Shown one piece after another: positions 17,775 through 29,368 of a DNA stretch of 35,606 nucleotides. Origin of the DNA: Microcaldota archaeon (GTDB lineage Archaea > Micrarchaeota > Micrarchaeia > Micrarchaeales > CABMGC01). The notes beneath the pieces were generated by a model, which saw nothing but the letters and a program-made list of their open reading frames with translations, was not told the DNA's origin and searched no databases. The stretch spans positions 1 through 35,606 of the forward strand of contig JAJZKQ010000006.1 in the NCBI GenBank assembly GCA_021804095.1. Reading direction: 5' to 3'. The translations under genes were made by a program, and so were the position numbers. Within the stretch, counting starts at the first letter, position 1. Every line of letters starts with the position of its first letter.

Positions 17775-20015
17775 TCAATCTCTAAAACTATTCTCTCTTT
17801 CTTGCTCTCCCATATCTATGTCTATTCTGCATCCTCCGTAAAAATCAAAAATCCTGGTGCTCTTTTTCGTTTTTCCAGGAATTACCATCTTATACTTCTT
17901 CTGCTCAAGTAAATTCTCAATTAAAATCTGCCCGTTTTCATCAGCAAAAACGGACATTATCGGTTCTCCAAGATACTTTATTTCTATAGGTGTCTGTATA
18001 CCTTTAAAATATTCCTTATCCTTAATTAGATTTATCCTGGTAATTTTTCTATTTATGACTTCATGCGTTTTAGGATTACTATCCTCTTTTTTCAAAAAAT
18101 ATTCCGGTATTTTTAAGAATAACGATTTTTCAGGTTTCTTAATCTTATCTTCCGAGCTTACATAATTCACTACACATATTCTATACTCAAGCATCTTAAG
18201 CCTTTCTTCAAGTTCTTCAGTTTCACTTCCTTCAAATATAAGGTCATTTGCAGCATACTTTACCGAATCTGCACTCTGTCTAAAATAAACCTTGTTTTGG
18301 CATAACCTCCTTATCCTAAGGTTTATGTCAGTGACACTATGTGTTATAAGCATTACTCCTATTCCCTTCTTTCTGAAATCCTGAATTCTCTGTCTTAAAT
18401 CAAGCATGGCTGCAGATTGTTCATCAGAATCAAAGATAAGCTGCGCTTCTTCAAGACATATGACCATCCGCAGTTCATCATTGCCTTTTTCATCAGTCAG
18501 GTCGGCAAACGAATAAATCTGGTTTAATGTTAGTGCGTAGAAAAAGGGCTTCATACTGTTACTTATTCCTGAAATGTCAAAAACCATGCCTTCTCTTATG
18601 ATCTTAAATAATTCCAATCCATCATTGTATGCAAATTGAGGCTTCAATAATATTAATCTCAGGTTCTGCAGGGCTGCCCTTATATTCTCACCATGTTTGC
18701 TATATCTTACCCCCGTATTGTTTCTCTTTCCATGGTTCTCTATAATCATCTCTTCTATCTTCTCATATACATAGTTTGGATCCGGATCAAGAGTCTCAGA
18801 ATAAATTTTGCTAAATGCAGAAAGTAAACATTTCTCCATGGAATTTTTATATGGTCCGGCATTAGAAGCATGCGCAAGAAGCATTGCAAGATTTTCATAA
18901 AATTTTTCTTTATTGCGTGTATTTTCACATCTGAAGAAATTGATCTTAAAATCTTCATCATGGAACTTTAATACCCTGATTCCTATCTTATTTGCAAAAG
19001 CTCCCCATTCTTCTGTAGGGGCTATTATTGTGATATGGCTTCCACTTCCTTTTAGTTGGTCTAATATATTCATGGCAGCAAATGTTTTACCTGTGCCAGG
19101 CAAACCTGTTATAAGCGTGCCCAGATTAAGTGTTGAGGGATCTATCTTAATCTCCTTGCTATCTTCCCTTACCGAACCCTCAACATAAGAGCCGAGCGAT
19201 ATGCTATCTGTGTTTTTACTATCCTTATTAATCTCTGTATTTATTACTTTCAACCTTCGGGTCTTCTCTGGAAAGTTTATCAAAAATTCCGCATTTCTAT
19301 AAGAAATAGGAAACGAGTCACAATTTCTAACCTCATTCCATATTTCCTTTAGCGTGCTTGATCTAAGTTTCTTCTCACCTAAAACTAACATCTTAGAAAG
19401 CAAATAATTCTCCAAAGAAGAATTATCACCATCTGTCAATATCAGATTTGATCTGTATCCAACTCCGTTTTTCACTATTATGTCATTTAAATTATTCAAA
19501 ACTGCAAGAGTTACCCTTCTTCTTCCTGAATCATAATAAAGTTCGCTTTGAGCGGATCCCGAATCTTCTCCAAATCTCTTATCCCCAAAATTTTTAGATA
19601 TGCGTATTTTATCGCTGCTAGCAAGCTCTTCGACCTGTTCTTTCAAAGTTCTTATGTCTCTTTCAGAAGAAGGAACAAATGATAATATAAGATCAGAAGA
19701 ACTACCTTCCAATACTCTATGTATGTTATCCAATATCGGACATTCTTTTTCCTTAATATCTCTCGTATCAAACGCTATTAACGCCTTAGGATTCTGTACC
19801 TGCAATTCATAATTCTGTAAATTCTTTAATCTCATCCCAAGCACTGCATATGAAAGCCTCTCCCCTATTCTACAATCTTCTGAGACTATAAAAGACCTGC
19901 TTTCCTTGAACCTATGTATAAGCATAAACTGCAACCCTAACATCGAATCAAGGAAAAGTTCCGTGTCAAATTTCTCCGGAACCGTCTCTATCTCAAAAAC
20001 TTTTAAAACCATCAA
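17775..20015 (-). CDS. HerA/TraG-like P-loop ATPase (DNA-transfer cluster)
   Basis: Walker A LITGLPGTGKTFAAMNIL; Walker B MVICLEEAQLIF; 'FRKKGIGVMLITHSVTDINLRIRRLCQNKVYFRQ' sensor region. Confidence 0.85.
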   Translation of the reverse strand: MMVLKVFEIETVPEKFDTELFLDSMLGLQFMLIHRFKESRSFIVSEDCRIGERLSYAVLGMRLKNLQNYELQVQNPKALIAFDTRDIKEKECPILDNIHRVLEGSSSDLILSFVPSSERDIRTLKEQVEELASSDKIRISKNFGDKRFGEDSGSAQSELYYDSGRRRVTLAVLNNLNDIIVKNGVGYRSNLILTDGDNSSLENYLLSKMLVLGEKKLRSSTLKEIWNEVRNCDSFPISYRNAEFLINFPEKTRRLKVINTEINKDSKNTDSISLGSYVEGSVREDSKEIKIDPSTLNLGTLITGLPGTGKTFAAMNILDQLKGSGSHITIIAPTEEWGAFANKIGIRVLKFHDEDFKINFFRCENTRNKEKFYENLAMLLAHASNAGPYKNSMEKCLLSAFSKIYSETLDPDPNYVYEKIEEMIIENHGKRNNTGVRYSKHGENIRAALQNLRLILLKPQFAYNDGLELFKIIREGMVFDISGISNSMKPFFYALTLNQIYSFADLTDEKGNDELRMVICLEEAQLIFDSDEQSAAMLDLRQRIQDFRKKGIGVMLITHSVTDINLRIRRLCQNKVYFRQSADSVKYAANDLIFEGSETEELEERLKMLEYRICVVNYVSSEDKIKKPEKSLFLKIPEYFLKKEDSNPKTHEVINRKITRINLIKDKEYFKGIQTPIEIKYLGEPIMSVFADENGQILIENLLEQKKYKMVIPGKTKKSTRIFDFYGGCRIDIDMGEQERENSFRD

Positions 20016-20016
20016 C

Positions 20017-20202
20017 TCACAATATAAAAATCACCGCAAACAATATCAAAAAATTAATCAAAACCAAAGAAAATACCTCAGAACTTTTTATTGTCTTTAT
20101 CCTCTTGTATGAAAAACAGGCAATTATTATCCCTATGACAGAGAGTAATAGTGTATATTCAAGTTTAAAATTCAGAATTAATCCTATTCCCAACATACTC
20201 AA
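20017..20202 (-). CDS. Small hydrophobic membrane protein
   Basis: 61 aa, at least 2 TM segments; frame is open upstream to about 20286 without an ATG/GTG start, so the true N-terminus is uncertain. Confidence 0.55.
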   Translation of the reverse strand: MSMLGIGLILNFKLEYTLLLSVIGIIIACFSYKRIKTIKSSEVFSLVLINFLILFAVIFIL

Positions 20203-20282
20203 CTCAATATTTCCGCAGGCTGCCGCAAATTTTAAAATAGTGTAATCTTTCCTTATTTTCTGAATATAATGCTCTACAAACT

Positions 20283-20486
20283 CTATCTAATCACCTCATA
20301 AATAATAAAAGAAAGTGTAAACAAAAATGAGAACCCTACACTCTTGTTAATCAAAATTTTTCTGTTTTTTCTATTCGAAAGCAATGCGGCATCTATTAAA
20401 AAACTCGAAGCTATCGCACTCATTTTCACTGTAGATAAAAGAAAACCTCCAACAATATTCATCCAACCACTAACTAATAGTAACAA
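20283..20486 (-). CDS. Small hydrophobic membrane protein
   Basis: 67 aa with 2 hydrophobic segments, overlaps the upstream gene. Confidence 0.55.
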   Translation of the reverse strand: MLLLVSGWMNIVGGFLLSTVKMSAIASSFLIDAALLSNRKNRKILINKSVGFSFLFTLSFIIYEVIR

Positions 20487-20949
20487 TCCTTATTCTAGAG
20501 ACTAATACATAATGCAAAAGGAGTCCGGAAAACGGATCAAACCTAAGTATCCTATCTAAGAATTCCCTCCGACCTGTAGAAAATACACTAATTCTATCTT
20601 CTAAAATGAGATTGGCAAAAGGTTTTGAAGGATCTCCAAATCTAAAATCAAGAATACCGAGTTCTCTTTTGCAGAGAGACTTATAGCTATTATCCTCTAT
20701 TCCACTCAACAATCCATTAATGATAAGTTCTTCCCTTCTGAAAATATTAAAAAGATCCTCAAGATATGGGTATCTTTCCCTTTCCATCTCCTGATTATTT
20801 TTACAGGGCAGATTTCCAGTATACTCTATTCTATCTAGATATACTTTTATGGTGTCTTTCGATATCTTAAATGATCTGGCAACGTAAAAAAATAAGATGC
20901 CTAATGGTATAGGTATGAAGTTCCATAAATAACTAATAGAAAAGCTCAT
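20470..20949 (-). CDS. Membrane-anchored hypothetical protein of the DNA-transfer cluster
   Basis: N-terminal TM (YLWNFIPIPLGILFFYVARSF) and soluble domain; overlaps adjacent genes. Confidence 0.7.
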   Translation of the reverse strand: MSFSISYLWNFIPIPLGILFFYVARSFKISKDTIKVYLDRIEYTGNLPCKNNQEMERERYPYLEDLFNIFRREELIINGLLSGIEDNSYKSLCKRELGILDFRFGDPSKPFANLILEDRISVFSTGRREFLDRILRFDPFSGLLLHYVLVSRIRIVTIS

Positions 20950-21569
20950 GCTCTCACCAAAGAGTAATTACCATCACGCAAGAGAATTTTTCTATAACCC
21001 GAATCCTCCAATTTCTTTATAGCAAAAAGTATATCTTCCTCATTAAATCCTGTTTCTTCTACTATTGTTTTAATTCGTAAATTATCGCGATATTTATCCT
21101 GTATATACTTTGATAACAATGCTATGGAAGTAGACTTTATTTTATAAAGATCTACACTTAGTTTTTTATTCTCATTATGAAGCATGTTTATTCTTTTTGC
21201 AAGAATTATGTCTGTTTCACGGCTCTCTGTATGCAATACTTCTATCTTTTCAAAAATGCTAGCGATTCTGCCTGAACCTAAAACTCCAATTATATATGGA
21301 TAAATATCTTCAAAATTAGCAGAATAGTGGTCTTTTAAGAAAGCAAGAATGCTTAAAAGCCTCAAAAGCCCATCATGCATATAATATTGGGGCTCCACAA
21401 GTGAAAAAATCTGAAAGACTATTCTTTCTCTCGAAAAGCTTATTGTAAAATAATGGTCATCTACGCCTTCATCAACAATATACTCTCTTTCTGTTCCTTT
21501 TCTTACGCATCTGAGTTTTGGATATTCTTCTATCTTCCTGATTGTGGAAACGAACTTCTCATTCATCTT
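20946..21569 (-). CDS. Hypothetical protein with C-terminal winged-helix-like domain
   Basis: 'DNLRIKTIVEETGFNEEDILFAIKKLEDSGYRKILLRDGNYSLV' resembles wHTH; ATG at 21569 (MNEKF) suggested over the track start 21620. Confidence 0.6.
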   Translation of the reverse strand, partial: KMNEKFVSTIRKIEEYPKLRCVRKGTEREYIVDEGVDDHYFTISFSRERIVFQIFSLVEPQYYMHDGLLRLLSILAFLKDHYSANFEDIYPYIIGVLGSGRIASIFEKIEVLHTESRETDIILAKRINMLHNENKKLSVDLYKIKSTSIALLSKYIQDKYRDNLRIKTIVEETGFNEEDILFAIKKLEDSGYRKILLRDGNYSLVRA

Positions 21570-21600
21570 AACTCCAATAGAAATCCTGCTTACTAGAAAT

Positions 21601-22737
21601 TTACCCTTCGACATCCACATCTCCTCTTACCATTGCAATTGCGAAAGCATCTGATATGTCCTCTTCTGGTATTTTCAGCTTCATAAGGCATCTCAGCATC
21701 TTCCTTCTATCTGCTTTAAGTCTGATCAGGCATGCAACAAGATATGAAAGTTCTACTTCCTTCTCTGCAGAAATTTTCCTTATTAAATCAGAAGGATCAT
21801 CCCTGACAAGTTCATTTACCATCTTCCTAAATCTACCGTATTCTACTTTTATCATATCATCCCCAAATAAAATAGTAAGATAATCTCTGAGCCTTACTCC
21901 TATTACCTGCTTTATAAAAAACGCATCTCTCCTTTTTGTTTTATGCGTCTGCACCACAAAACATTCCCCCACTTCAAGATTCTGTATCCTATTTAATGTT
22001 TTTTCATCAAGCCCATAACTTTTCGAAAGTTTATTGAGGCTGTTTTTGTTCTGGATCCTAAAAACAAACAATACTGCAGAATTGTAGAGCATAGGTATAT
22101 CAATATCCTCAAGCATCTGGGAGGCCATAACAATTCCTACGCCGTATTTCCTGCCCTCTCTAACTATGCTTTCAAGGCTATTTATCTCTTTTAAAAATTT
22201 CCATGCTTCGTCTAGGAATATGAAAACCCTGAAATCTCCATCCGCATTCCAGAATCTCATATTCCTGTCTATCTTATTTAAAAGATCGGAGACTCTTCTG
22301 CTCTTCTCTTTCTCTTCTAGATTTTTCAGATCGTAATAAATAATTGCATAATCCTCCTTATTCCCCTCCTGATCTTCAATTCCGAATAAACGGTCAAGTT
22401 TCAAAGAAGAATCCTCCCTATTTGTATTCGAAAGTTCTGCGTATTCCCCATTAAGGTCTATGACTACTATCTTGCACCCCAGCAAAGAATAAATTTTGAG
22501 CATAAGGCTCTTCATGAGATATGTCTTTCCACTTCCGCTCATTCCAAGTATAAATGTATGTGGATTTAAAAGAGATCTAAAATTCAGGAAAAATGGCATA
22601 GAATACTCTAATGATCTTCCTACAAAAACTCCCCCTTTTGAATATTCAATTGCCTCATCTCCTCTCTGTTCATTCATATTTGGGATTACAACTATTCCAG
22701 ATGCAAACAGCGATCCTGTAATAAAACCATTTCTCAT
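21601..22737 (-). CDS. VirB4-like ATPase domain protein
   Basis: GGVFVGRSLEYSMPFFLNFRSLLNPHTFILGMSGSGKTYLMKSLM; VVIDLNGEYAEL; FIFLDEAWKFLKEINSLESIVREGRKYGVGIVMASQMLEDI. Confidence 0.9.
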   Translation of the reverse strand: MRNGFITGSLFASGIVVIPNMNEQRGDEAIEYSKGGVFVGRSLEYSMPFFLNFRSLLNPHTFILGMSGSGKTYLMKSLMLKIYSLLGCKIVVIDLNGEYAELSNTNREDSSLKLDRLFGIEDQEGNKEDYAIIYYDLKNLEEKEKSRRVSDLLNKIDRNMRFWNADGDFRVFIFLDEAWKFLKEINSLESIVREGRKYGVGIVMASQMLEDIDIPMLYNSAVLFVFRIQNKNSLNKLSKSYGLDEKTLNRIQNLEVGECFVVQTHKTKRRDAFFIKQVIGVRLRDYLTILFGDDMIKVEYGRFRKMVNELVRDDPSDLIRKISAEKEVELSYLVACLIRLKADRRKMLRCLMKLKIPEEDISDAFAIAMVRGDVDVEG

Positions 22738-23462
22738 CAGAACCCCTCAATTAAATTAACAAGTTCTTCCCCGTTTGCAATTTCATATTTTACTCCCAAT
22801 GCAGCAGAGAACGAGTCTCCTATCTGCATAATATTCGAATAGGCTTCCCTGGAAGCCTCAATCTCACTACCGGAATTAGCAAAAGCAAAAACCCTGATAA
22901 ACATATCCAAAGCTCTTCCTCCGGTTCTAATACTACTTATTTCGCTTTCAAGAATGTCTATTTCCCTCTTTAATGAATTTACTTTATCGTGCTTTTTAGG
23001 ATCTGTCCTAGAAAGCAATATCTCTTTCATCCTTTTTTTCGTTTCGATTGTATCATAAAGCCTCTTGCTATCGACCTCCTTGATCGTGACTCTAAACTCG
23101 AAAGGCAACCTTATACTTTCTATTACCTCTTTAACCCTGCCATGGTCTACCAGCTTTTTCTCTTCAGGCATTATAACCGCAATGGCAACTGCCACATATC
23201 CTTCATCGGTCTTCTTTATCATTGAATTGAGATTATGGGAAAGCCAAAATCCATTGCACATCTCTATTATTGCGGATTTCCTAAGAATCAAATTGTTTAT
23301 CATGTGCCCACTGTTAAAATAAGCAACAGAGGAAAAAATCATAACTGCAGTAAATGCTACTAAATATATATTTGAAAAAAAGACTGAACATAAAATTGTG
23401 AAAGCCCCAATTCCATAAAGCATGTAAGCGTACACTTTTTTATCCTGTGTTTTATTATCCAT
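22737..23462 (-). CDS. TM protein resembling VirB3/PrgI-like TMs fused to a VirB4 N-terminal domain
   Basis: N-terminal hydrophobic pair, then 'FEFRVTIKEVD...LKREIDILESEISSIRTGGRALDMFIRVFAFANSGSEIEASREAYSNIMQIGDSFSAALGVKY'; TGATG overlap with the ATPase gene. Confidence 0.65.
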   Translation of the reverse strand: MDNKTQDKKVYAYMLYGIGAFTILCSVFFSNIYLVAFTAVMIFSSVAYFNSGHMINNLILRKSAIIEMCNGFWLSHNLNSMIKKTDEGYVAVAIAVIMPEEKKLVDHGRVKEVIESIRLPFEFRVTIKEVDSKRLYDTIETKKRMKEILLSRTDPKKHDKVNSLKREIDILESEISSIRTGGRALDMFIRVFAFANSGSEIEASREAYSNIMQIGDSFSAALGVKYEIANGEELVNLIEGF

Positions 23463-23465
23463 AAA

Positions 23466-24518
23466 CTAACCTAACATATAAAATCTGCCAAAGGAAGCTT
23501 CGCTTCCAAGCAGTTCAGAAAGCTCCTTTATCGATATTCCTGTTATTATAAGGCTGAAAGCAGGAAGTATGAAAGTATAAACTATAAAATATGCCACAGC
23601 TGAGAATATCTTGTCCAGAAGTAGCGCAATATTATTTTGCAGAGAGGTTACCGCTCCGGATATTTTTCCAATAACGCCATTATCCTTTGTACTGTTATAA
23701 TAACTTCCTGAAGAAAACAACTGGTTCTCCACAGATACTGCCGAATATGTCACATTTGTTATTCCGGACGAAGAAGCACTTTGAAGGAATGAACTTGATA
23801 TTGCCATATTGAAAAGATATGAAAGAGGCAGTACTACATACAGGCCTATGCTTACCGCTATAAAAAACCCGCCAAGTTTTCTAGTGGGATAAAATGACCT
23901 TAGTATAAGTCCCAATGGCAGCATTATACTCAGTGCTCCAACAGCAACAAAGGATAAGACTGCCGCCTGGACCAACACGCTTATAGCTACCGTGCTGAGA
24001 ATCTTGATTATATATTGTATTTCAGTTATTACGGGCAAAAAAACATAACTAAAAGAGAACTGTACAAACTCAAGATTTATTTTAACTGAAGAAATTGCAC
24101 CTACCACCGCATTTAACGCTAAAAGTGAAGTTATGGTACCCGAAACCATTGAGAATATGGGCTGGTGATCTTTTCCCATAAATGTGTAATCTCCAGATCC
24201 TGCAAGATAATCATAAGAGAGGCATATGGACGGATTTGAGCTCATATATCCCAAACAGTTTATCTTTGTGCCATTGACAATAACTAAAGAGTTTATCATA
24301 CTTCCGATCAGTCCGGAAGGCGTGAAAAGCAGAATTAGCGTACCAACCAATATCCCGTTTATTACAGACTGGTATAATTCCTCTCTTCCAAATTCTTTGA
24401 ATTTTTTCTCGTTAAGTGCATAGCCTATTCCCAATGAAAACCCGCTTAATGCTATCATAATACTTATTACGTATACGGATATTGCGTATCCCTGGTATCC
24501 TAAAAGAATATTTGCCAT
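23466..24518 (-). CDS. Polytopic membrane protein, VirB6/TrbL-like
   Basis: 350 aa with many TMs; position between pilin-like and VirB4-like genes; 'AFSLIITGISIKELSELLGSEASFGRFYML' C-terminus. Confidence 0.65.
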   Translation of the reverse strand: MANILLGYQGYAISVYVISIMIALSGFSLGIGYALNEKKFKEFGREELYQSVINGILVGTLILLFTPSGLIGSMINSLVIVNGTKINCLGYMSSNPSICLSYDYLAGSGDYTFMGKDHQPIFSMVSGTITSLLALNAVVGAISSVKINLEFVQFSFSYVFLPVITEIQYIIKILSTVAISVLVQAAVLSFVAVGALSIMLPLGLILRSFYPTRKLGGFFIAVSIGLYVVLPLSYLFNMAISSSFLQSASSSGITNVTYSAVSVENQLFSSGSYYNSTKDNGVIGKISGAVTSLQNNIALLLDKIFSAVAYFIVYTFILPAFSLIITGISIKELSELLGSEASFGRFYMLG

Positions 24519-24522
24519 CTAT

Positions 24523-24915
24523 TCACAGTGTGTTTGAGGTAAAATTGGAGAGAATATGTGTCGATGCTATTGCAAGATTTGTAGAAGCTACAGAGAGGAC
24601 CGCAACGACAACAGCGCCTATTATAATATCTATGGCCATCGTATGAAGACTTGCCCTCTTATAAGAAGGAAACAACTGTCCAACAGCGTAAAATATGCCT
24701 CCAAGAACAAAAAGCATAGCGCTGAATGCAGGACCTATTCTCATGAGAAGCAGCTGTATATTTTGTATAGTACCAAAAATATCCAGTGAAATATATTCCG
24801 CATTTACTATTCTGAATATCACTCCAAAACCCATAAGCATTGCAACTGATGTCTTCAGCAGTATTCTCCTTACTGTCTTCCCATTATTCATGTTTATATC
24901 CAAGTAATCATCCAT
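24523..24915 (-). CDS. VirB2/TrbC-like two-TM protein (pilin candidate)
   Basis: LMRIGPAFSAMLFVLGGIFYAVGQLFPSYKRASLHTMAIDIIIGAVVVAVLSVASTNLA; start at 24915 preferred over track 24978 because a TATA-like TTTATATATTTA lies at about 24946-24957. Confidence 0.65.
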   Translation of the reverse strand: MDDYLDINMNNGKTVRRILLKTSVAMLMGFGVIFRIVNAEYISLDIFGTIQNIQLLLMRIGPAFSAMLFVLGGIFYAVGQLFPSYKRASLHTMAIDIIIGAVVVAVLSVASTNLAIASTHILSNFTSNTL

Positions 24916-25295
24916 ATACTTTAGTATAAACCTTTTACTACAATAAATATATAAATATTTAGGAAGAGCATTAATCACAATGCGATAAGTATCCCACAGA
25001 ACTGTAGAGAAAGAATCAGTGCCATAAACAATCTTTCACTACCAACTAAGGTGGTTTTGGGCGATTTTCCGCTCAGATACGGTGAGAAAAGCCTCAATAT
25101 GCTCCGGTAAAATCCGATTTAGTGAATCGGATCAGGTCAAAAAGTCAGAACTCCATTGCTCAAAGCGGCGAGTCTAAGTTGTGGTATCTTTTTCCTTGTC
25201 AATACCGGGTGCAATACCCTCTATGCAAAGTTCTTTGCCAAATAAACAGATCGCGCTCCGAGAAGCCGAATCACTCTTCATCAAATTCCATCTGC

Positions 25296-26686: not shown

Positions 26687-29368
26687 ATGAAAACTATCCA
26701 ATCAGCATCAGAATTCCTTTCAGTGTATGGGATAGCCTTACTTATAATAGCAGTAGTCACAGTGATAATCTATGCAATAACCTCTCTTCCTTCTTCCACT
26801 GTTCCAAATACATGTACCTTTTCCGGATATGTTTCCTGCAGAAACATAGCAATAGGCTCAAACACTTTAGCTTCAAGAGCAATACTTCTGTTCTCGAACC
26901 CACAACAGTATGCCGTAGAAAATGCAATACCTACCATAAACATAACCAATATAGGGACATTTACCGGAAGCTGCAGTCCTTATTACGCGCTTCCCGGAGG
27001 AATATTCGAATGTGTCATAAACTTCAATAAGAAAATGATCCCAAACCAGCTTTCCAACGGGAGAATAAACCTAAGCCTAACCGTATGCACAACGATAAAC
27101 AATAAAAACTGCGGCCTTTCTCAGAGGGAAGTTTACTCCGGCAGCTTCAATGTACATATATCTCCAATAGTGCCTCCTCCAAGGTGTACAATCACATTAT
27201 CTGGAAATTCTGTAATTCCCTATGGCACCAGAAGCAACTTAACTGCAAATGTAAAGCTCTTCAAAACCAATATAGCAGGGGCGACAGTTAATTTTACAAC
27301 AGCAAACAGCATTAACTTACTCCTAAGCCAATCCCTTGTCAATACGGATAGCAATGGCAACGCAACAGCTTCAATATACTCTTCAACACCAGGTAACTAC
27401 CTTATAACTGCATCATTTGCAAACTGCACTGTCTCAAATACGATTACCTATCAGGCGCCGCCAGAATTTTTATCTGTTCTATCGAACGGATGCGGAGCCG
27501 CATCCGGTTCAGGAGAATATGCCTATGGGAGCAATGCGGCCTTTTCCATAATTCCATATAATGGATATACCTTTACAGGATGGACAGGATATGGCACAGG
27601 CTCTTACACCGGCAATATGTTGTCTCAGAATGTAATATTATATAATTCAGAGACAGAATCAGCAAGCTGTCAATTAAACCTGCCTTCCCTATACAGTCTC
27701 AATGTTATTCAGAATCCGCCTAATACGGGTTTCGTTTCAGGCTCAGGATATTATGCATATGGCCAAATAGCAGAAGTAAATGTATCAGCTCCGACTATTG
27801 CAGGAACAGAACAGTATTCAGAAAACTATTTCAAACCAGGTTACTACTACTTCCAGACGCCTCCTGGTACTTCTACAAGTACTCTATATACTATTTCAAT
27901 AGTGGGCGCAGGCGGCGCCGGAGGCTATGGCTATAGCGGCGCAGGCGCTTCCAGCGGAGGTTCAGGCGCCGGAGGCGGAGGATATCTGCAAGCTGTAGTA
28001 TCAGGATACCCTCCCGGTACTGGTTTCTATATAAATGTCGCAGAGGGAGCCCAAGTATCCAATGGACAGGCTGGCATATCTTCAGTAAGCGGGCCTAACT
28101 TCTATTCATACTCACTAGGAGGCCAGGGCGGAAGCGGAAATTATGATTCCGGAGGTTGTTATATTATACCAGGAGGCGCCGGAGGAACCGCTGGCGCTTC
28201 AGGCGCTATAAAGATACTTATAAATGACCAAGGAGCTTCAGGCCAGGAAAACACCTGTACTGTAGGTGGCAATGGCGGAGATTCCGGAGACTCCCAAGGA
28301 GCAGGCGGCGCCGGAGGCGGAAGCCAACAGACACATAATTCTAATACCGGATATCCCGGAGGAAACTTCGGCGGCGGCGGAGGCGGCGGAGCTGCAGGTG
28401 AAGGAAGTTCAAACAAATACTGTCATGGAAACGGATGTCTTCAAAACGGAGGTCCCGGTGCCGGAGGAGCTGTAAACATATTCTGGACCGAACCTGTTCA
28501 GGAATCAAACTATATCTTTTCGCATTGGACATGCTCCGGAGAAGCTTCATGCTATTCCGGAACCACGTATAATTTCACTATACCAATAACATCAAACACT
28601 ATAGAAACTGCAAACTTCAATGAAAGGCTCCTTCCAGGTTCTGTATCATACACCTCTCCTAATACCTATAACTTCTATACTCCCGCAGCGAGCAACACGT
28701 TAACTACATACCATGTAGTTCTTATCGGCGCCGGAGGAAACGGAGGCTATGGGTATTGGGGCGCTTCAGGCTGGAACGCAGGCGCCGGAGGCGGCGGAGG
28801 AGCATATATGAGCTTCAATATTTCCGGATATCCTCCTAATACCTTGTTAACATTTGTAGTTGGAAATTCAAATAATCCATATCCAAACTCTCCAAATCCC
28901 GATACTAATCCAGGAACATGGCCAAGCCATCCTTGGACATACTATGCTAATTACGGCGGAGCCACTACTCTTGCCGGCCCATCACTCTCAGTATCTGCCG
29001 GCGGAGGAGGAGGCGGCGGAGAACAATCCGATTCAGGAGATTGTTATCCTCTTCCAGGAGGCGCCCGAGGAATATACCAATACTCTGGAAATCTGGAAAA
29101 TATAATGTCAATTGATGGATACTCGGGCCAGAGTATCGGGTGCACATTCACTACAGGAGGAGCAGGCGGCGCCGGAGGAAACTCTGGAAATAACATGGGA
29201 ACTCCGGGCATAGCCGGAGCACATACTCTACAGGGAGGAAACGGAGGAATCTGGGGTGCCGGCGCCGGAGGCGGAGGCCTACCCCAATATGTAGACTGCC
29301 ATTCAATAGGCTGCAGTACCTCTGGTGGAACAGGCGCAGTAGGCTATGCTGAAATATCCTGGGGATAA
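26687..29368 (+). CDS. Large class III-signal-peptide surface protein with InlB-B-like repeats and duplicated Gly/Cys-rich domain
   Basis: N-terminal QSASEFLSVYGIALLIIAVVTVIIY; Ig-like region; 'GSGEYAYGSNAAFSIIPYNGYTFTGW' and 'GSGYYAYGQIAEVNV' repeats; two Gly-rich domains. Confidence 0.85.
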   Translation: MKTIQSASEFLSVYGIALLIIAVVTVIIYAITSLPSSTVPNTCTFSGYVSCRNIAIGSNTLASRAILLFSNPQQYAVENAIPTINITNIGTFTGSCSPYYALPGGIFECVINFNKKMIPNQLSNGRINLSLTVCTTINNKNCGLSQREVYSGSFNVHISPIVPPPRCTITLSGNSVIPYGTRSNLTANVKLFKTNIAGATVNFTTANSINLLLSQSLVNTDSNGNATASIYSSTPGNYLITASFANCTVSNTITYQAPPEFLSVLSNGCGAASGSGEYAYGSNAAFSIIPYNGYTFTGWTGYGTGSYTGNMLSQNVILYNSETESASCQLNLPSLYSLNVIQNPPNTGFVSGSGYYAYGQIAEVNVSAPTIAGTEQYSENYFKPGYYYFQTPPGTSTSTLYTISIVGAGGAGGYGYSGAGASSGGSGAGGGGYLQAVVSGYPPGTGFYINVAEGAQVSNGQAGISSVSGPNFYSYSLGGQGGSGNYDSGGCYIIPGGAGGTAGASGAIKILINDQGASGQENTCTVGGNGGDSGDSQGAGGAGGGSQQTHNSNTGYPGGNFGGGGGGGAAGEGSSNKYCHGNGCLQNGGPGAGGAVNIFWTEPVQESNYIFSHWTCSGEASCYSGTTYNFTIPITSNTIETANFNERLLPGSVSYTSPNTYNFYTPAASNTLTTYHVVLIGAGGNGGYGYWGASGWNAGAGGGGGAYMSFNISGYPPNTLLTFVVGNSNNPYPNSPNPDTNPGTWPSHPWTYYANYGGATTLAGPSLSVSAGGGGGGGEQSDSGDCYPLPGGARGIYQYSGNLENIMSIDGYSGQSIGCTFTTGGAGGAGGNSGNNMGTPGIAGAHTLQGGNGGIWGAGAGGGGLPQYVDCHSIGCSTSGGTGAVGYAEISWG

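Follow-up and report, generated by a model that had tools for sequence, protein, structure and literature searches.

What do nine tightly packed genes of an ultrasmall archaeon build, and what does their product move? The genes lie on the minus strand at positions 17775-24978 of contig JAJZKQ010000006.1 (assembly GCA_021804095.1), analysed over positions 1 to 35,606; this whole stretch of 35,606 nt, contig 36 of a source assembly of 811 kb that is 83% complete, is referred to as the window. The initial annotation, made from the sequence alone, proposed a compact DNA-transfer cluster resembling a type IV secretion system (T4SS) in a probable DPANN archaeon, and the lineage is indeed Micrarchaeota (DPANN). 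On the evidence below, the cluster is probably a minimal T4SS-like machine of Micrarchaeota, chromosomal and vertically inherited, with DNA as its most likely cargo. In order of transcription, it comprises:

24523..24915, minus strand: predicted VirB2/TrbC-type pilin, with a signal-like N-terminus and two hydrophobic helices with a K/R-rich turn between them
23466..24518, minus strand: polytopic membrane protein in the VirB6 position, 350 amino acids (aa), about seven hydrophobic segments
22737..23462, minus strand: membrane hairpin and predicted VirB4 N-terminal domain, 241 aa (AlphaFold2 and Foldseek)
21601..22737, minus strand: VirB4/CedB-type ATPase domain, 378 aa, with invariant Walker A and B motifs
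20946..21620, minus strand: conserved cytoplasmic partner with a possible C-terminal winged helix, 224 aa (weak helix-turn-helix matches)
20470..20949, minus strand: anchored protein with a single transmembrane (TM) segment, 159 aa
20283..20486, minus strand: small two-TM protein, 67 aa, with orthologues in 11 loci
20017..20202, minus strand: small two-TM protein, 61 aa; similar small TM open reading frames (ORFs) occupy the same position elsewhere but are not alignable
17775..20015, minus strand: HerA-type ATPase of the FtsK-HerA superfamily, 746 aa, without TM segments (HerA_C, 1.5e-5)

An ORF check of the window recovered all nine ORFs, co-oriented, exactly where the initial annotation had placed them, with an operon-like intergenic spacing of -20 to +80 nt. 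We refer to the type of cluster found in this window as system A, and to a second T4SS-like cluster in the same order as system B. The order VirB2-VirB6-VirB4N-VirB4C was contiguous and co-oriented in all 31 system-A loci read, which come from one order and two families, and the gene resembling a winged helix-turn-helix (wHTH) protein stood directly after this four-gene core in 27 of them; it also occurs in other families. Such fixed synteny over 31 loci rules out chance ORFs and confirms the nine as genuine genes forming one conserved unit. When genome contigs were scanned with an alignment of the pilin, the loci returned were almost all labelled Micrarchaeota; a scan with one single sequence as query returned nothing.

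Judged by its sequence family, the first gene of the cluster is a VirB2/TrbC-type pilin. PF18895 (T4SS_pilin) was matched by 18 of 27 pilin orthologues (best 4.1e-7) and PF04956 (TrbC/VirB2) by 14 (best 4.1e-5), with matches accepted up to E 0.1, while the NCBIfam model pLS20_p028, a conjugation TM protein, was matched by 13 of the 27. The window's own pilin fell below the limit for both Pfam families when searched alone. The identity given by the initial annotation stands; its start codon does not, since alignment with homologues favours ATG 24915 (130 aa) over GTG 24978. Of all components of the cluster the pilin is conserved best, and no relative of it was found in a viral contig collection.

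The third and fourth genes together account for a VirB4 protein, as the initial annotation had supposed for each of them. The AlphaFold2 model of the 241-aa protein (predicted local distance difference test score, pLDDT, 88.6) was compared with the PDB using Foldseek, and the top 13 matches were all R388 VirB4 complexes, the best being TrwK/VirB4 (E 2.3e-4, prob 1.00). As modelled, the protein is thus the R388 VirB4 N-terminal domain fold set behind a membrane hairpin, which by its position may be VirB3-like. The motor follows in the 378-aa protein, which matches AAA_10 (3e-14) and DUF87 (6e-14) in Pfam and HerA and VirB4 in the PDB. Among NCBIfam models CedB came first (3.2e-18, with a score of 65.7 bits against an equivalog cut-off of 700 bits), followed by HerA_antiphage, CedD and TraC. 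In hhalign it also matched, at 98.3%, a DUF87 ATPase encoded by pKEF9, a conjugative plasmid of Sulfolobus; for VirB6 and VirB2, comparison with pKEF9 proteins found nothing. With the N-terminal fold in the third gene and the motor in the fourth, VirB4 is split over two genes. A separate VirB4 N-terminal protein, TrsD, is known from some monoderm systems (PMC12102498), and Ced shows a comparable split between CedB and CedD (PMC11868833).

The 350-aa protein was called VirB6-like in the initial annotation, and here the outcome was mixed. Its position, its topology and its paralogy with system B hold up: the family is homologous to the VirB6-like family of that system (hhalign, 99.9%). It has an invariant pair of cysteines (C88/C99) and a conserved motif, LRxFxxTRxxGGxxIA, in the alignments. 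Neither a VirB6 fold nor homology to proteobacterial VirB6 was recovered, as the AlphaFold2 model (pLDDT 74) had no fold match in the PDB and the profile comparisons, given further below, were negative. The label "VirB6-like" is accordingly used for a candidate placed by position, topology and paralogy, without a database match.

The last gene encodes, in agreement with the initial annotation, a HerA-like ATPase, which gave a weak HerA match in the PDB and has low similarity to solved HerA-type ATPases. The Walker motifs of both cluster ATPases are conserved and intact. The 746-aa ATPase was found in 98 of 148 genomes of the order; it occurs together with a strong VirB6 orthologue in 91 and both are missing from 37 (Fisher p 5e-17, a value inflated by shared ancestry, which the test ignores). 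Restricting the table to genomes at least 90% complete gave 37/2/1/11. The association also holds where the ATPase gene lies elsewhere or on another contig (e.g., genomes G001, G005, G025 and G064), and several separate absences speak for a functional link between this ATPase and system A despite the shared ancestry. Two closely similar HerA-family genes of 531 aa (L071 and L072) lie on different contigs of one assembly (G000:C5 and C37).

How the cluster is inherited can be read from its surroundings and its distribution. The flanking genes are ordinary chromosomal ones (threonyl-tRNA synthetase, argininosuccinate lyase and synthase, Nre, L10e and Dph2), of which Nre, L10e and Dph are kept beside the cluster across genera. 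A tRNA-Thr gene lies 70 bp from the cluster end; no tRNA-derived attachment repeats were found at the cluster, and the 3' end of this tRNA is not repeated. Together with a pilin that has no viral relatives, the shared neighbours and the missing tRNA repeat establish the cluster as a chromosomal, vertically inherited system rather than a mobile element. A strong VirB6-like orthologue (E <1e-20) is present in 104 of the 148 genomes (∼70%), and both cultured strains, which we take to be 'Ca. Mancarchaeum acidiphilum' Mia14 and 'Ca. Micrarchaeum harzensis', carry the cluster. Core genes of system A also occur in families f3, f4, f6, f7, f18 and f26 of the class, most fully in f7; at some loci in these other families VirB2 or VirB6 was not recognised, which in places is due to the end of the contig. 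Beyond the aminotransferase gene next to the cluster, on the opposite strand (26687-29368, plus), the window encodes an 893-aa predicted surface protein with Big_1, InlB-like and Gly-rich matches, a possible adhesin. Its homologues lie near the cluster at L035 (55%) and L062.

The gene-neighbourhood survey foreseen in the initial annotation found a conserved core that is vertically inherited, reaches other families and is one of two T4SS-like systems. System B consists of a pilin, six VirB6-like proteins, two VirB4 N-terminal domain proteins, one ATPase of about 505 aa and a wHTH-like protein, in that order, and none of the order's 51 near-complete genomes lacked its ATPase. The tandem VirB6-like genes numbered exactly six in 20 of the 21 system-B loci read (L223-L226, L228-L236, L054, L066-L069, L073 and L074); at L067 and L068 the stretch read starts inside the array, which truncates the first gene, and the count there covers only the genes within that stretch. 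The exception, L227 in genome G024, has the system-B ATPase and wHTH-like gene with no VirB6-like gene within ∼13 kb; system A of the same genome (L055) has likewise diverged strongly. System B appears to be split in the genome from which the window comes, with the six VirB6-like and two VirB4 N-terminal domain genes at L054 (G000:C33) and the ATPase at L070 (G000:C21), both inside contigs. At L073 (14905-15831) a Laminin_G_3 domain protein lies beside the system-B ATPase.

In a tree of 12 loci, each of the six VirB6 positions formed its own clade (SH-aLRT support 99-100). Six retained paralogues that are not interchangeable would fit a hetero-oligomeric ring, which suggests that the pore of system B may be hetero-oligomeric; tandem VirB6 paralogues have been described for Rickettsiales (PMC7648143, PMC2653234). 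In the VirB4C tree, the window's clade (f1) is fast-evolving and has 100% support, while system B, a paralogue that evolves more slowly, joins the systems of f4, f7 and f18, which have one each, through branches of only moderate support. The simplest reading of these sequences would be an old duplication that preceded the split of the two families. In the VirB6 tree, by contrast, it is the single VirB6 of other families that groups with the VirB6 of the window, so this reading of the history is tentative in its details.

Among known systems, Ced and Ted come closest, and the initial annotation's comparison with their minimal core (a pilin, a polytopic channel candidate and VirB4) was upheld. 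The Ted system of Thermoproteales (PMC9905601) has a pilin (TedC), a VirB6-like protein (TedA) and a VirB4-like ATPase (TedB), with a HerA-like neighbour in some genera. It shares with the window a chromosomal pilin, polytopic protein and VirB4-type ATPase, an associated HerA-like ATPase and the lack of a relaxase. The window cluster differs from Ted in its VirB4 in two genes, its extra small TM genes and its conserved wHTH-like gene, in having no visible VirC1/ParA or Rad50 gene, in the rarity of NurA and in belonging to a host-dependent DPANN lineage. The Ced system of Sulfolobales (CedA, CedA1, CedA2, CedB, CedD and CedE; PMC11868833) is likewise similar in its two ATPases, in a VirB4 N-terminal domain spread over more than one protein and in CedB being nearest to the ATPase domain by NCBIfam. 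Unlike in Ced, the N-terminal domain is a stand-alone membrane protein, the operon is compact and evidence for a UV regulon was not seen. The channel (CedA/TedA) and pilin (CedA1/TedC) components named in NCBIfam or the PDB were not matched, and a PDB sequence search detected no similarity between the window's pilin and TedC.

The Patescibacterial T4SS (PMC12102498) also belongs to ultrasmall, host-dependent cells and has chromosomal VirB2, VirB6 and VirB4 with a separate N-terminal protein (TrsD), but it is bacterial and MPF_FATA-related, its VirB3 is separate and no VirB3-VirB4 fusion was found. The lineages are unrelated and the likeness is apparently convergent. The nanohaloarchaeal SPEARE proteins, likewise from DPANN, include VirB4-type ATPases proposed to be T4SS-like; as far as the accessible text goes (PMC10266531), a giant adhesin carries the VirB4/TraG-type ATPase as a fusion and no pilin/VirB6-like operon is described. 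The R388 T4SS (MPF_T) shares the VirB4 N-terminal domain fold and the VirB2 family with the window cluster, in which VirB5, VirB7-11, VirD4 and a relaxase were not identified and VirB6 is not detectably homologous. For Mia14, two systems of type IV pili have been reported, as well as genomic islands that may hold conjugative elements (PMC5498576). We found no description of a T4SS-like system in Micrarchaeota in the main texts of the open literature searched, mostly by term. Sequence comparison thus suggests that the cluster is best described as a vertically inherited minimal T4SS of the Ced/Ted kind.

In such a machine, the pilin would form a conjugation-type filament or seal and the 350-aa protein would provide a channel across the cell's one membrane. 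The hairpin/VirB4 N-terminal domain protein would dock a ring of the separate VirB4-type ATPase beneath this channel, and the HerA-type ATPase would feed or take up the substrate. By analogy with Ced and Ted, both of which transport DNA, this would most likely be DNA passing between contacting cells, either kin or a Thermoplasmatales partner. Several findings weigh against this reading. The 350-aa family matched nothing in PF04610, Pfam, NCBIfam or the PDB, and against nine MPF_T VirB6 sequences it scored 0.3% in hhalign, the level of reversed controls. System A is not universal, with 12 of 51 near-complete genomes having no strong VirB6 orthologue, and its statistical association with the HerA-type ATPase carries the ancestry bias noted above. 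NurA was found in one of 59 genomes of the order, and there weakly, so that the step in which HerA-NurA is proposed to generate single-stranded DNA in Ced/Ted (PMC9905601) would be unavailable in its usual form. The PF03432 relaxase was absent from all 59 genomes (other relaxase families were not searched). The initial annotation had taken the missing relaxase to favour import over conjugation, an argument that has to be abandoned because no recognisable relaxase is present in the conjugative plasmids of archaea either (PMC12857230) and its absence says nothing about direction. Import may be slightly favoured, only by analogy with Ced.

Without a relaxase of the PF03432 family, the same machine might instead exchange protein, other macromolecules or metabolites with the host and so serve symbiosis or the delivery of effectors. 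A Patescibacterium cannot grow epibiotically without its T4SS genes (PMC12102498), the VirB4-type ATPases on giant surface proteins of nanohaloarchaea are proposed to act in effector secretion (PMC10266531), and the gene for a large surface protein with Ig-like domains is found near the cluster. Cryo-electron tomography shows filaments at the host contact in the co-culture of 'Ca. M. harzensis', which the same study assigns tentatively to the host side (PMC8975820). However, no effector candidate was found in the operon, the nearest ATPase relatives (CedB and pKEF9) serve DNA transfer and a second ATPase of HerA type points to nucleic acid; protein cargo is less likely than DNA but a serious alternative. 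The filaments between micrarchaeon and host, and a pilin that is the best conserved component, would also suit a T4SS-derived pilus that attaches the cell to its host without any transport; given that both ATPases are conserved, with their Walker motifs intact, and that a protein in the VirB6 position is retained along with them, this has only a small chance.

That the cluster is an integrated conjugative plasmid or similar mobile element is very improbable. Archaeal conjugative elements do show VirB4-type ATPases without a relaxase, and the cluster does end close to a tRNA gene, but Pfam scans of the window found no integrase or replication gene, and presence in ∼70% of the order, a clade-consistent phylogeny, housekeeping neighbours conserved across genera, an unrepeated tRNA end and the lack of relatives in viral or plasmid collections all speak for residence in the chromosome. 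Three specific origins were rejected: a virus, for want of relatives in the viral contig collection, a plasmid, where VirB6 had no match and ATPase matches were partial and generic, and an integrative and conjugative element at tRNA-Thr, ruled out by the missing repeats. The two ATPases are members of the FtsK-HerA superfamily, and the initial annotation had itself named HerA-NurA repair or virus packaging as machineries to which they might belong instead; the membrane genes would then merely happen to lie beside them. This explanation is hardly credible: the near-absence of NurA, the VirB4-specific N-terminal fold, the pilin family, the fixed synteny and the lack of any match in the viral collection already contradict it.

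A Ced/Ted-like DNA-transfer machine therefore remains the favoured account of the cluster, and it would add a deep lineage of ultrasmall archaea to those with T4SS-like systems of this kind. We tentatively raise the possibility that Micrarchaeales build two different T4SS-like machines that jointly form an interface for exchanging DNA or other macromolecules with Thermoplasmatales hosts: the compact system A, which has one VirB6-like subunit and, as a second motor of its own, the HerA-type ATPase, and system B, with a pore of six different VirB6-like subunits in fixed genetic order, set on two VirB4 N-terminal domain proteins and one ATPase. If this is true, the six fixed paralogues would make an unusual hetero-oligomeric T4SS pore. 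The presence of the cluster in two cultured species makes it directly testable, and the filaments that cryo-electron tomography shows between host and symbiont might be its product. It bears on how DPANN symbionts may swap macromolecules with their hosts, and on how host genes may enter their genomes.

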